From positions 1 through 64,000 of the forward strand of contig NZ_VFUZ01000010.1 in the NCBI RefSeq assembly GCF_006658505.1: a stretch of 64,000 nt of DNA, read 5' to 3'. The DNA comes from Mesorhizobium sp. B2-4-15. Lineage in GTDB: Bacteria; Pseudomonadota; Alphaproteobacteria; Rhizobiales; Rhizobiaceae. Numbering within the stretch: the first letter of the stretch is position 1; each line of letters starts with the position of its first letter. Positions 3,779 to 55,381 of the stretch are shown here, one piece after another. Under the pieces are notes generated by a model, which was given only the letters and a program-made list of their open reading frames with translations, searched no databases and was not told where the DNA came from. Both the position numbers and the translations under genes were made by a program.

Positions 3779-5188
3779 TTATTTCCAGTCGCGGATGTCT
3801 ACGAAGTGGCCGGCGATCGCCGCCGCCGCCGCCATGGCCGGCGAGACCAGATGGGTGCGGCCCTTGAAGCCCTGCCGGCCCTCGAAATTGCGGTTCGAGG
3901 TCGAGGCGCAGCGCTCATGTGGCTTCAGTCGGTCGTCGTTCATGGCAAGACACATCGAGCAGCCCGGCTCGCGCCAGTCGAAACCGGCGGCGAGAAAGAT
4001 CTTGTCGAGACCCTCGGCTTCCGCCTGTTCCTTGACCAGACCGGAGCCCGGCACGATCATGGCGTTGACACGCGGATTGACTTTTCTGCCCTCGACCACC
4101 TTGGCGGCGGCGCGCAGGTCCTCGATACGGCCATTGGTGCAGGAGCCGATGAAGACGCGATCGAGTTCGATGTCGGTGATCCTGGTTCCCGGCGTCAGCC
4201 CCATATAGTCGAGCGCGCGGATCTTCGAGGTGCGCTTGTTCTCGTCGGTGATCTCCTCCGGATTTGGCACCACGCCCTGCACCGATACGACGTCTTCCGG
4301 CGAGGAGCCCCAGGAGACGATCGGCGGCAGTTTCGCAGCGTCGAGCACGATCACCTTGTCGAAATGCGCGCCTTCGTCGGACTGCAGCGTCTTCCAGTAT
4401 TCGAGCGCCGCGTCCCACGCCGCGCCCTTCGGCGCACGCGGCTTGTCCTTGACATAGGCGAAGGTCGTCTCGTCGGGGGCGATCAGGCCGGCGCGGGCAC
4501 CGCCCTCGATCGACATGTTGCAGATGGTCATGCGGCCTTCCATCGACAGCGAGCGGATCGCCTCGCCGGCATATTCGATGACATAGCCGGTGCCCCCGGC
4601 GGTGCCGATCTCGCCGATGATTGCAAGGATGATGTCCTTGGCGGTTACGCCTTCCGGCAACTGGCCGTCGACGCGCACCAGCATGTTCTTGGCCTTGCGC
4701 TGGATCAGCGTCTGCGTCGCCAGCACATGCTCGACCTCTGACGTGCCGATACCGTGCGCCAGCGCGCCGAAAGCGCCGTGCGTCGAGGTGTGGCTGTCGC
4801 CGCAGACGATGGTCATGCCGGGCAAGGTAAAACCCTGCTCCGGGCCGATAATGTGGACGATGCCCTGGCGGATATCGTTCTCGGAATAATATTCGACGCC
4901 GAAATCCTTGGCGTTCTTGGCCAACGCCTCGACCTGGATCCGGCTTTCCTCGTTCTTGATGCCGAACTTGCGCTCGGGCGAGGTCGAGACATTGTGGTCG
5001 ACCACGGCCAGCGTCTTTTCCGGATGCCGGACTTTCCTGCCGCTCATGCGCAGGCCCTCGAAGGCCTGCGGGCTGGTGACTTCGTGGACGAGGTGGCGGT
5101 CGATGTAGAGCAGGCAGGTGCCGTCGTCCTGGCGGTCGACGACATGGTCGTCGAAAATCTTGTCGTAGAGGGTGCGCGGTGCGCTCAT
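3779..5188 (-). CDS. leuC: 3-isopropylmalate dehydratase large subunit
   Basis: A 469-residue LeuC of normal length. With the small subunit LeuD it interconverts 2- and 3-isopropylmalate in leucine synthesis. The three Cys that hold the 4Fe-4S cluster are visible: one in GSCTNGR (about residue 350) and two in GCSMC (about 410 and 413). The substrate loop [13 protein letters not shown] is also present. leuD is not in the window, as is common in Rhizobiales where leuC and leuD are separated. It is a single-gene unit with its own promoter region, and the downstream neighbour converges on it. Confidence 0.97.
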
Positions 5189-5679: not shown

Positions 5680-6315
5680 CTACAGAACTTCGAACACAAA
5701 CGTCTTCACCAGCGCATCAGGCTCGGCGATGGCATAGCAGCGGAACCACGGGCTTTGCTCGACCAGGCGCCATTTCCTTGCCTGTGTGAGTTCGTCGAAC
5801 ACGGCTTGGAAACCGCCGCTTTCAAAAACCTGGTCGCGCACGGTGAAGATGGCGTGGCCGCCTTTCTCCGTGATGCGCACCAGCTCGTGCAGGCCCGACG
5901 CCGGCGCGTGGCTGATGGTGAAGACACCGGTCGAGAAAAAGGCGCGGAAATGGCCATCCGGCCACGGCAGAGGGCCGCCCAGCATCGCCTTTTTCAGCTC
6001 GCTATAGGCATTGCGGCTGCCGGCGATCTTGAGCATGTCGTCCGACAGGTCGAGCCCGGCAATATCGCCGTAACCCAGCGCCTTGAGCGACGGCCCCGAC
6101 AGGCCGGTGCCGCAGCCGGCGTCGAGCAGCGGCCCTTCGCCCGCCGGCACGTGGCGCGCCACCCAGGCGCTGATGAGGAAAGGGAGCAGATAACCGAGTG
6201 ATGCGGTCTCGCTGTCATAGGTCGCGGCCCATGCGGCATAGGCATGCGCCAGCGTTTCCGGCGTGTCGGCTCCATAGACGGAATCCAGCGCCGCATTGGC
6301 CTTGTCGACGATCAT
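5680..6315 (-). CDS. Class I SAM-dependent methyltransferase
   Basis: A 211-residue methyltransferase with the SAM-binding glycine loop LDAGCGTGLSG and later strand motifs GLDLSDDML and TGVFT. It resembles the WBSCR27-like small-molecule methyltransferases, with YAAWAATYD near the N-terminus; the substrate is unknown. The start is chosen at 6315 because GGGGAG lies upstream with 11-base spacing. A longer reading from ATG 6381 adds 22 residues, but its first 15 codons are exactly a dispersed repeat and it has no ribosome site. Monocistronic; the next gene upstream is an ABC permease 100 bp away. Confidence 0.85.
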   Translation of the reverse strand: MIVDKANAALDSVYGADTPETLAHAYAAWAATYDSETASLGYLLPFLISAWVARHVPAGEGPLLDAGCGTGLSGPSLKALGYGDIAGLDLSDDMLKIAGSRNAYSELKKAMLGGPLPWPDGHFRAFFSTGVFTISHAPASGLHELVRITEKGGHAIFTVRDQVFESGGFQAVFDELTQARKWRLVEQSPWFRCYAIAEPDALVKTFVFEVL

Positions 6316-6337
6316 CGGTCGTGAGTCTCCCCGCTCA

Positions 6338-6386
6338 TGCATGCCGCCCAGAAGTGCGTCGAGGTTTTGGGACAACGACATGCATA
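6338..6386. repeat. Dispersed GCATGTCG family repeat forming the possible N-terminus of the methyltransferase
   Basis: Read on the minus strand, the element runs from GCATGTCGTTGTCCCAAAAC through ACGCACTTCTGGGCGGCATGC. It matches the tandem copies at 55245-55338 and a partial copy at 30181-30216. Translated from ATG 6381 it reads MSLSQNLDALLGGMH, and the 55294 copy reads MSFSQNRNALLGDMQ in the same frame, so the similarity is that of a repeat and not of a protein family. Confidence 0.75.
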
Positions 6387-6416: not shown

Positions 6417-7229
6417 CTATTCCTCGTGCTGGCGGCGCAAGCGCCGCTCCAGCGCCCTGAGCGACAGCGACAGGCCGACGGTCAGGATGAGATAGATATA
6501 GGCAACGATCGAATAGGTCTCGAAGAAGCGGAAGGAGCCAGCGGCATAGACCTTGCCCATCTGGGTGATGTCGGCGACGCCGAGCACCGAGACCAGCGAG
6601 GAATCCTTGACCAGGGCGACGAAGTCGTTACCCAGCGGCGGCAGGATGGTGCGGATCGCCTGCGGAAAAACGATGAGCCGGAAGCGTTGCGAGCGGCTCA
6701 GGCCAAGCGCTTTGGCCGCTTCGATCTGGCCTTTCGCGACGGCCTGGATGCCGGCCCGGAAAACCTCCGAAATGAAGGCCGAATAGCCGATTGTCAGCGC
6801 CATGATGGCGCGCCACAAGAGCGAGACATCCCGCACCAGAAGCTCGCCGAGCAGACCGGCGCTCTGCAGCGGCGCGGTAAGCGTGTTCCAGGCCGCGACA
6901 AAGGCCGGCGCGCCGGCGAAGGCGATCCAGAACAGCAGCACCAGGATCGGCACGCCACGGATGATCTCGACATAGAAGCGGGCGATCTGCCGCAACCAGG
7001 GCGAACCCGACAGGCCCATCAGCGCAATGCCGAGGCCGATGATCGAGGCCAGCGCAAAGGCGACCACCGTGACGAAGACGGTAATGCCGATGCCCTTGGC
7101 GACGGTGGCGAAGACCTGGGCATAGAGATCGCTGGCGGCGATGAACAACGCCGCCGCCAGTGCGAGGACGGCGGCAACGGCGAGCCACCACGGGAATTCG
7201 GATTTGGAGGAAGACGGTCCGGCAGGCAT
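6417..7229 (-). CDS. Polar amino-acid ABC transporter permease (HisM/GlnP type)
   Basis: A 270-residue inner-membrane permease with about five to six hydrophobic segments. The EAA loop that docks the ATPase is clear: EAAKALGLSRSQRFRLIVFP, followed by QAIRTILPPLGNDFV. The last segment ends in an Arg-rich cytoplasmic tail. It lies 114 bp downstream of a family-3 substrate-binding protein on the same strand, so the two should form one importer. The ATP-binding subunit and a second permease are not adjacent, so the permease may work as a homodimer with an ATPase encoded elsewhere. The substrate cannot be told from sequence. Confidence 0.93.
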   Translation of the reverse strand: MPAGPSSSKSEFPWWLAVAAVLALAAALFIAASDLYAQVFATVAKGIGITVFVTVVAFALASIIGLGIALMGLSGSPWLRQIARFYVEIIRGVPILVLLFWIAFAGAPAFVAAWNTLTAPLQSAGLLGELLVRDVSLLWRAIMALTIGYSAFISEVFRAGIQAVAKGQIEAAKALGLSRSQRFRLIVFPQAIRTILPPLGNDFVALVKDSSLVSVLGVADITQMGKVYAAGSFRFFETYSIVAYIYLILTVGLSLSLRALERRLRRQHEE

Positions 7230-30030: not shown

Positions 30031-30363
30031 TACCACCTCCGTCGGATCCGGCTGGGGGGAACGCCGTCCGCGCAATCTCACCTCCACCAAAATGGAGAAG
30101 GTGGCGAAATTTCAACCCGATATGGTTAAAATAGGGTTTGCAGCAAGATTTGTTGCAGATTTATCACATAATGCGTGTCGCCAAAAATGCGCAGCGGTTT
30201 TGGGACAACGGCATGCGTCAAATGATCCCGAGCGACGTATGGCCAGTTGGCAGGCCCGAAGTAGCCAAGGTGCCGCCCTGACCGATGGCATTCGGCCGGC
30301 AAACGCTTGCGCCAGGCGAGGCAGGGCCTATGTCAGGGAAACGAATCCTGCCGGAGCAAAGAC
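30031..30363. other. Divergent intergenic region with a partial repeat
   Basis: About 330 bp between the omp19 start and an MBL-fold gene on the plus strand. Bases 30181-30216 (AAAAATGCGCAGCGGTTTTG through GGCATGC) are a partial copy of the GCATGTCG repeat. AT-rich sequence at 30120-30170 could hold the omp19 promoter. No other gene seen. Confidence 0.55.
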
Positions 30364-47938: not shown

Positions 47939-48325
47939 ATGACTGATGACAGCGGCGGGTCGGGGGATGGTGACGCATCCGCAATATTGATCCCGCTGCA
48001 CGAGGCGCGACGTGACCGCCTCGACCAGCCGGTGCGCTTCGACCGGCGGGAACTGGATCAGATCCTCAGGCTCTACGGGCGCATGGTCGCCGCCAATGAA
48101 TGGCGCGACTACGCCATTGATCATCTCACCGACCGAGCCGTGTTTTCCGTCTTCCGCCGCGCCAGCGAAGTGCCGCTGTTCCAGATCGTCAAGGATCCGA
48201 AGCTGGCCCGCAAGCAGGGTGCCTTCGCCGTCATCGCGGCGGGAGGGCGCATCCTCAAGCGCGGGCAGGAGCTTGGCCGCGTGCTCGGCGTCTTCGATGG
48301 CAAGCTGAAGCTGGTGCAGGCCTAG
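47939..48325 (+). CDS. DUF2794 protein
   Basis: A 128-residue soluble protein. After a disordered Gly/Ser/Asp start, the DUF2794 signature runs RFDRRELDQILRLYGRMVAA, YAIDHLTDRAVFSVFRRASE, LFQIVKDPKLARKQGAF and GRVLGVFDGKL. The family is nearly confined to alphaproteobacteria and has no known function. ATG 47939 is chosen with GAAGGA nine bases before; an earlier TTG is weaker. Confidence 0.88.
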   Translation: MTDDSGGSGDGDASAILIPLHEARRDRLDQPVRFDRRELDQILRLYGRMVAANEWRDYAIDHLTDRAVFSVFRRASEVPLFQIVKDPKLARKQGAFAVIAAGGRILKRGQELGRVLGVFDGKLKLVQA

Positions 48326-48331
48326 CTAGAG

Positions 48332-48373
48332 CAATTCCAGGAAAAGTGCGCAGCGGTTTTCCGTCCGGAATTG
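48332..48373. repeat. Dispersed palindromic repeat, CAATTCC family copy 4
   Basis: CAATTCC (48332-48338) and GGAATTG (48367-48373) with AGGAAAAGTGCGCAGCGG between. Lies in the 66-bp gap between convergent genes, as does copy 2. Confidence 0.8.
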
Positions 48374-48391
48374 CGTAAAGAAATCAATGCC

Positions 48392-49853: not shown

Positions 49854-49879
49854 TGTAGTCCTCTATTGCTTCTGCCCCG

Positions 49880-49960
49880 TCCGGTGCGGGTCCTGCCGGA
49901 TATACATCCGCCGAACCCAGGCGCCGCTGGCGGGGCTCCAGCATGCCTGTGGCGAAATAT
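49880..49960 (-). ncRNA. ybhL leader RNA motif
   Basis: On the minus strand upstream of the BAX-inhibitor gene, CAGGC (49949-49945) pairs with GCCTG (49922-49918) and encloses GCTGG/CCAGC with an AGCCCCG loop; a second arm runs from GGTTC to GGACC (to 49889) with GGAT/ATCC inside. A conserved structured element in front of ybhL genes of Rhizobiales was described by comparative genomics as the ybhL motif; this fits in place, size and layout. Ligand unknown. Confidence 0.6.
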
Positions 49961-55221: not shown

Positions 55222-55244
55222 CGATCCCAGGCTGTTCTATCCGG

Positions 55245-55338
55245 TCGTTTTCCCAAGACCGCAACGCACTTTTGGGCGACATGCCTGCTTTGCGCATGTC
55301 GTTTTCCCAAAACCGCAACGCACTTTTGGGCGACATGC
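55245..55338. repeat. Dispersed GCATGTCG family repeat, tandem pair
   Basis: Two copies of CGTTTTCCCAARACCGCAACG with CACTTTTGGGCGACATGC: 55245-55284 and 55294-55338. They lie just upstream of phhB. A third copy overlaps the methyltransferase start at 6338-6386, and a partial copy is at 30181-30216. Confidence 0.85.
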
Positions 55339-55381
55339 AGTATGGTGGGGGTCATCTTTGCAAATAGCATGGGAACCGAAC

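Follow-up and report, generated by a model that had tools for sequence, protein, structure and literature searches.

A methyltransferase gene near the beginning of the window, the 64,000-nucleotide stretch of Mesorhizobium DNA analyzed here, has its longest reading frame open within a short repeated sequence, and the question this raises is whether the repeat has supplied the protein with a new N-terminus or whether translation begins downstream of it. The ATG in the left arm of the hairpin formed by the repeat (6381-6379) begins a reading frame, MSLSQNLDALLGGMH..., continuous with the methyltransferase; residues 1-22 of this long reading are MSLSQNLDALLGGMHERGDSRP, and the Methyltransf_11 domain occupies its residues 86-179 (47.2 bits versus a cut-off of 21.2 in Pfam). 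An earlier note, made from the letters of the window, had offered two possibilities: that the repeat had become a new start for the gene, or that the correct start was ATG 6315 with GGGGAG upstream. Our analysis indicates that 6337-6385 is almost certainly a dispersed, non-coding intergenic hairpin of the RIME/REP-like kind that adds no protein, with translation starting at ATG 6315 (Table 1).

Table 1. Positions of the methyltransferase locus and of the hairpin copies in the window.
Feature	Position	Strand	Evidence
Class I SAM-dependent methyltransferase, real reading MIVDKANAALDSVYG..., 211 aa	5680..6315	-	Pfam Methyltransf_11 E 3.6e-12; start kept in 57/57 orthologues
Spurious in-frame extension, 22 codons, repeat ATG to codon before real start	6316..6381	-	In frame here only; 28/57 orthologues with upstream stop
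Shine-Dalgarno (SD)-like GGGGAG, 11 nt before ATG 6315, outside hairpin	6327..6332	-	Sequence; purine-rich SD-like stretch in same region of orthologues
Hairpin repeat, GCATGTCG stem class, 49 nt	6337..6385	-	Covariance model 64.7 bits, E 9e-15
ABC permease upstream, hairpin in permease-methyltransferase gap	6417..7229	-	Pfam BPD_transp_1 E 2.6e-25
Hairpin copy, intergenic, decayed stem	30171..30218	-	Covariance model 56.0 bits, E 1.8e-12
First of two tandem hairpin copies	55239..55286	+	Covariance model 45.6 bits, E 9e-10
Second tandem hairpin copy, MSFSQNRNALLGDMQ reading	55292..55340	+	Covariance model 67.7 bits, E 1.6e-15

A dispersed palindromic repeat in the window and the genome

That a dispersed repeat lies at the front of the methyltransferase gene is borne out by the half-site GCATGTCGTTNTCCCAAAAC, which matches the window three times, at 6364-6383 (-), 30197-30216 (-), and 55294-55313 (+), where shuffled sequences give an expectation of 0.00. 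Aligned copies define the element as an imperfect palindrome of 48-49 bp. The earlier note had placed a copy at 30181-30216, which proves to be part of the full hairpin at 30171-30218, and another at 55245-55338, where the repeat is indeed present, yet as two tandem copies and not one. It was also correct that two copies are read in the same frame, giving MSLSQNLDALLGGMH from 6381 and MSFSQNRNALLGDMQ from 55296. According to the ORF listing, the frame from 55296 is part of no gene and ends 23 codons after its ATG, closing at 55367; a pterin-4a-carbinolamine dehydratase (Pfam Pterin_4a) starts at about 55382, downstream of the second tandem copy. In RNA folding, the copy at 6337-6385 reaches -18.1 kcal/mol (z -2.5) and the one at 55292 has a z of -3.5, and the copies at 30171 and 55239 are decayed.

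The genome searched, whose ChvI is 100% identical to that in Mesorhizobium records, comprises 6.09 Mb in 61 contigs. It contains 38 half-sites at 1 mismatch or fewer, versus 0 for a reversed control, and about 90 hairpins by covariance model when both-strand matches of one palindrome are counted once. Hairpin matches were obtained with covariance model R2, the alternative R1 having been set aside for its long unaligned flanks. Ten aligned copies have an additional hairpin upstream, separated by a T-rich linker, which makes a composite of about 102 bp with two hairpins, AAAGCGCGTCG..CGACGCGCTTT and ATGCATGTCG..CGACATGCAT; the window copy at 6337 corresponds to the second one only. Many copies in this genome are such single hairpins, and others are two-hairpin composites. 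Beyond this genome, among 101 genomes from the family 43 have matches to the R2 model, versus 4 among 141 taken from elsewhere in the class. No family in Rfam matches the repeat.

The start of translation and the permease-methyltransferase gap

The start of the methyltransferase was compared in orthologues from 57 genomes belonging to the genus, one of them that of the window. A start codon is present at the position of ATG 6315-6313 in every orthologue (ATG in 53, GTG in 4), with a purine-rich SD-like sequence within the 25 nt upstream in almost every case. The spacing between this sequence and the start, 11 nt here, is shorter in many orthologues, at about 5 nt. Inspection of the sequence next to ATG 6381 revealed no SD-like motif. 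The second possibility raised by the earlier note, a start at ATG 6315 preceded by GGGGAG, is therefore strongly supported by a start codon at this position in every orthologue and by the SD-like sequence upstream. Counting from the orthologue table, 28 of the 57 have an in-frame stop no more than 22 codons upstream of the start, which rules out the extension in those genomes.

The hairpin itself occupies the gap between permease and methyltransferase in only 6 of the 57 (L031-L034, L038, and L098). The gap measures 101-110 nt in these six carriers and 54-58 nt in most genomes. Between the repeat ATG and the real start the window has 66 nt and the other five have 65, 65, 65, 68, and 67 nt, so that the two are in frame in the window only. 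This scatter in spacing is what would be expected if an intergenic element were placed by chance, and it is incompatible with a conserved N-terminus made by the repeat. The proposal that the repeat makes the methyltransferase N-terminus is consequently not supported, since most orthologues are without the repeat and the five other carriers all have its ATG in another frame. Conservation of the repeat-made segment across orthologues, which the earlier note had named as evidence against its suspicion of an artefact, was not seen.

On a tree of the 57 orthologues the six hairpin carriers fall in two parts, a pattern compatible with one old insertion followed by losses or with two insertions, and on comparing filled with empty sites a clean target-site duplication was not readable. 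Remnants of the hairpin right arm, or a different hairpin, are found in the gap of a few further genomes (L053, L108, L097, L099, and L113). In the last three of these the gap holds a hairpin of the GCAATTCC class, and in L113 there is also an apparent leftover right arm of a GCATGTCG hairpin.

An intergenic hairpin of this kind would give rise to the long reading in a simple way. The SD-like GGGGAG, which lies close to the hairpin without being part of it, would set the translation start at ATG 6315. With an ATG in both of its arms (GCATGTCG whichever strand is read), the palindrome offers a start codon in either direction at any copy. A one-base difference in length, arising by chance, would have brought the window copy into frame with the methyltransferase, and the longest-ORF reading therefore adds 22 residues. 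In its favor, the extension has no stop in this genome and passes a simple coding score applied to the longest ORF; translation from a secondary start could in principle produce it in this single species. At the level of the mRNA, the hairpin may protect the 3' side of the permease transcript or, alternatively, may limit ribosome access to the methyltransferase start.

A conserved regulatory role in the permease-methyltransferase operon, whether as an attenuator or as a translational control hairpin, would suit an element that sits in the 5' gap only 4 nt from the SD-like motif, folds well (z -2.5), and is retained in four related species with its outer stem largely kept. However, about 50 of the 57 orthologues are without the hairpin, most of them with ordinary short gaps, and the same element occurs in many unrelated contexts, so that its presence at the methyltransferase looks incidental and we consider a conserved role of this type unlikely. 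Short dispersed bulged hairpins, tandem copies, and gain and loss between species are also what a currently mobile, RAYT-driven REP would present, and REP, BIME, and Br-REP1-2 sequences resemble the repeat in being short palindromes that form hairpins, occur in tens to hundreds of copies, and often lie in 3' UTRs (PMC5082802, PMC3733652). The difference lies in the transposase: Pfam searches for Y1_Tnp (PF01797) gave 0 matches in the window's genome and in 12 congeners and detected the family in control genomes, so by that test the element is not a RAYT-driven REP, and this origin, which would call for a divergent Y1 transposase that Pfam does not recognize, is very improbable. Capture of the repeat as a new start, giving this strain's methyltransferase a species-specific N-terminal extension of 22 residues, finds a continuous open frame in this genome and a precedent in the Rickettsia palindromic elements (RPEs), palindromic repeats able to appear as protein sequence that are reported in frame inside ORFs (PMC3733652), but it is scarcely credible given a downstream start with SD-like sequence that is universal among orthologues, five other carriers out of frame (the three closest among them), and a repeat ATG that no SD-like motif adjoins. 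In contrast to RPEs, the element here is intergenic and its reading is not conserved, and assignment to an RPE-like element kept in frame across orthologues is not supported by the five other carriers, all five of them out of frame.

Longest reading frames at other copies

The intergenic hairpin has a consequence for other genes, as copies upstream of them yield similar false N-termini, MSxSQNxxALLGxM in one direction and MSPKSxxRFWxND in the other. In the genome, longest ORFs were called in the neighborhood of 64 copies from two hairpin classes, and 13 copies fell inside ORFs, with 12 of these, in ten ORFs, lying within the first 56 codons. The thirteenth, inside clpB (L001 1077-1124), was rejected, since conserved coding sequence matches there by chance. 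The ORFs extended by the repeat are unrelated to one another, including SHMT, DHDPS, pterin-4a-carbinolamine dehydratase, PEMT, subtilase, Mfd-like, and TadE-like genes, and the Pfam domain of each begins downstream of the repeat. In seven annotated plasmid contexts that were inspected (L091-L095, L239, and L240), the CDS meets the repeat by its 3' end and never by its start. The earlier expectation that similar peptides in databases would be annotation artefacts is upheld at the level of ORFs, where unrelated genes are extended; in the inspected plasmid records it is the 3' ends of coding sequences that touch the repeat. Beyond correcting one start codon, the analysis exposes a systematic annotation trap.

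Possible kinship with RIMEs and a tentative mosaic superfamily

Among known repeat families the RIMEs are the best match in kind, and the element is set beside them by kind and locus, not by sequence; the likeness is that of a dispersed palindromic intergenic element of Rhizobiaceae. RIME1 is reportedly made of two large palindromes, to be compared with the mixture of single hairpins and two-hairpin composites of about 102 bp seen here. Literature searches on RIME1 or on a Mesorhizobium intergenic repeat returned nothing. The name stands for Rhizobium-specific intergenic mosaic elements, which the title of Osteras, Stanley and Finan 1995 (J Bacteriol 177:5485; cited in PMC2573895, PMC2245857, and PMC4550343) puts within an essential two-component system. 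According to PMC2573895, rhizobial genomes carry dozens of intergenic sequences of this sort, with no function assigned to them. Hairpins that match our model, or stem variants of it, occur directly behind the chvI stop codon, between chvI and exoS, in Mesorhizobium, Rhizobium, Neorhizobium, and Aureimonas (loci L157, L158, L160, L165, L194, L202, L209, and L191, near 4700-4840, with differing stems). Judging from a later ExoS/ChvI paper that cites the 1995 study, we take chvI-exoS to be the two-component system of that title. It would then apparently be the locus where RIMEs were first named.

The wider repeat family, with its constant loop, exchangeable stems, and bias toward stop codons, is a more fruitful subject than the methyltransferase. 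Hairpins with different stems have in common the loop AAAACCG-N-CACTTTT and a 5' bulge. Stem classes GCATGTCG and GCAATTCC are both present in the window's genome, and Rhizobium and Aureimonas have GCATGATG and GCATCGGA in their chvI-exoS gaps. Of 71 distinct loop matches, 42 are flanked by an outer stem of 8 bp without mismatch; the cross-pairing control for this count is a weak one, many copies belonging to the same class. In 15 of 64 copies the hairpin ends on its 3' side between -8 and +6 nt of an opposite-strand stop codon, versus 0.8% of random positions; these include coding sequence, so that relative to intergenic positions the enrichment is less than this ratio suggests. It is possible, and we propose it only tentatively, that these rhizobial repeats form one mosaic superfamily in which loop and 5' bulge are constant and the two stem arms exchange as a pair (GCATGTCG, GCAATTCC, GCATGATG, GCATCGGA), placed preferentially flush against stop codons; this would imply a loop-recognising factor and either a role at 3' ends or a target preference.

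Hairpin 3' edges also abut stop codons in the seven plasmid gene contexts described above. The second hairpin class of this genome, that of the GCAATTCC stem (GCAATTCCGGACGGAAAACCG...CACTTTTCCTGGAATTGC), occurs in the window at about 48333-48376 (-) and at loci L123-L152. Hairpins of this class have the loop and linker of the repeat at 6337 with a different stem, and the window copy stands almost directly after a stop codon at 48325. Elsewhere in the window, at 49870-49949 (-), is a ybhL leader (Rfam RF00520, 55.2 bits).
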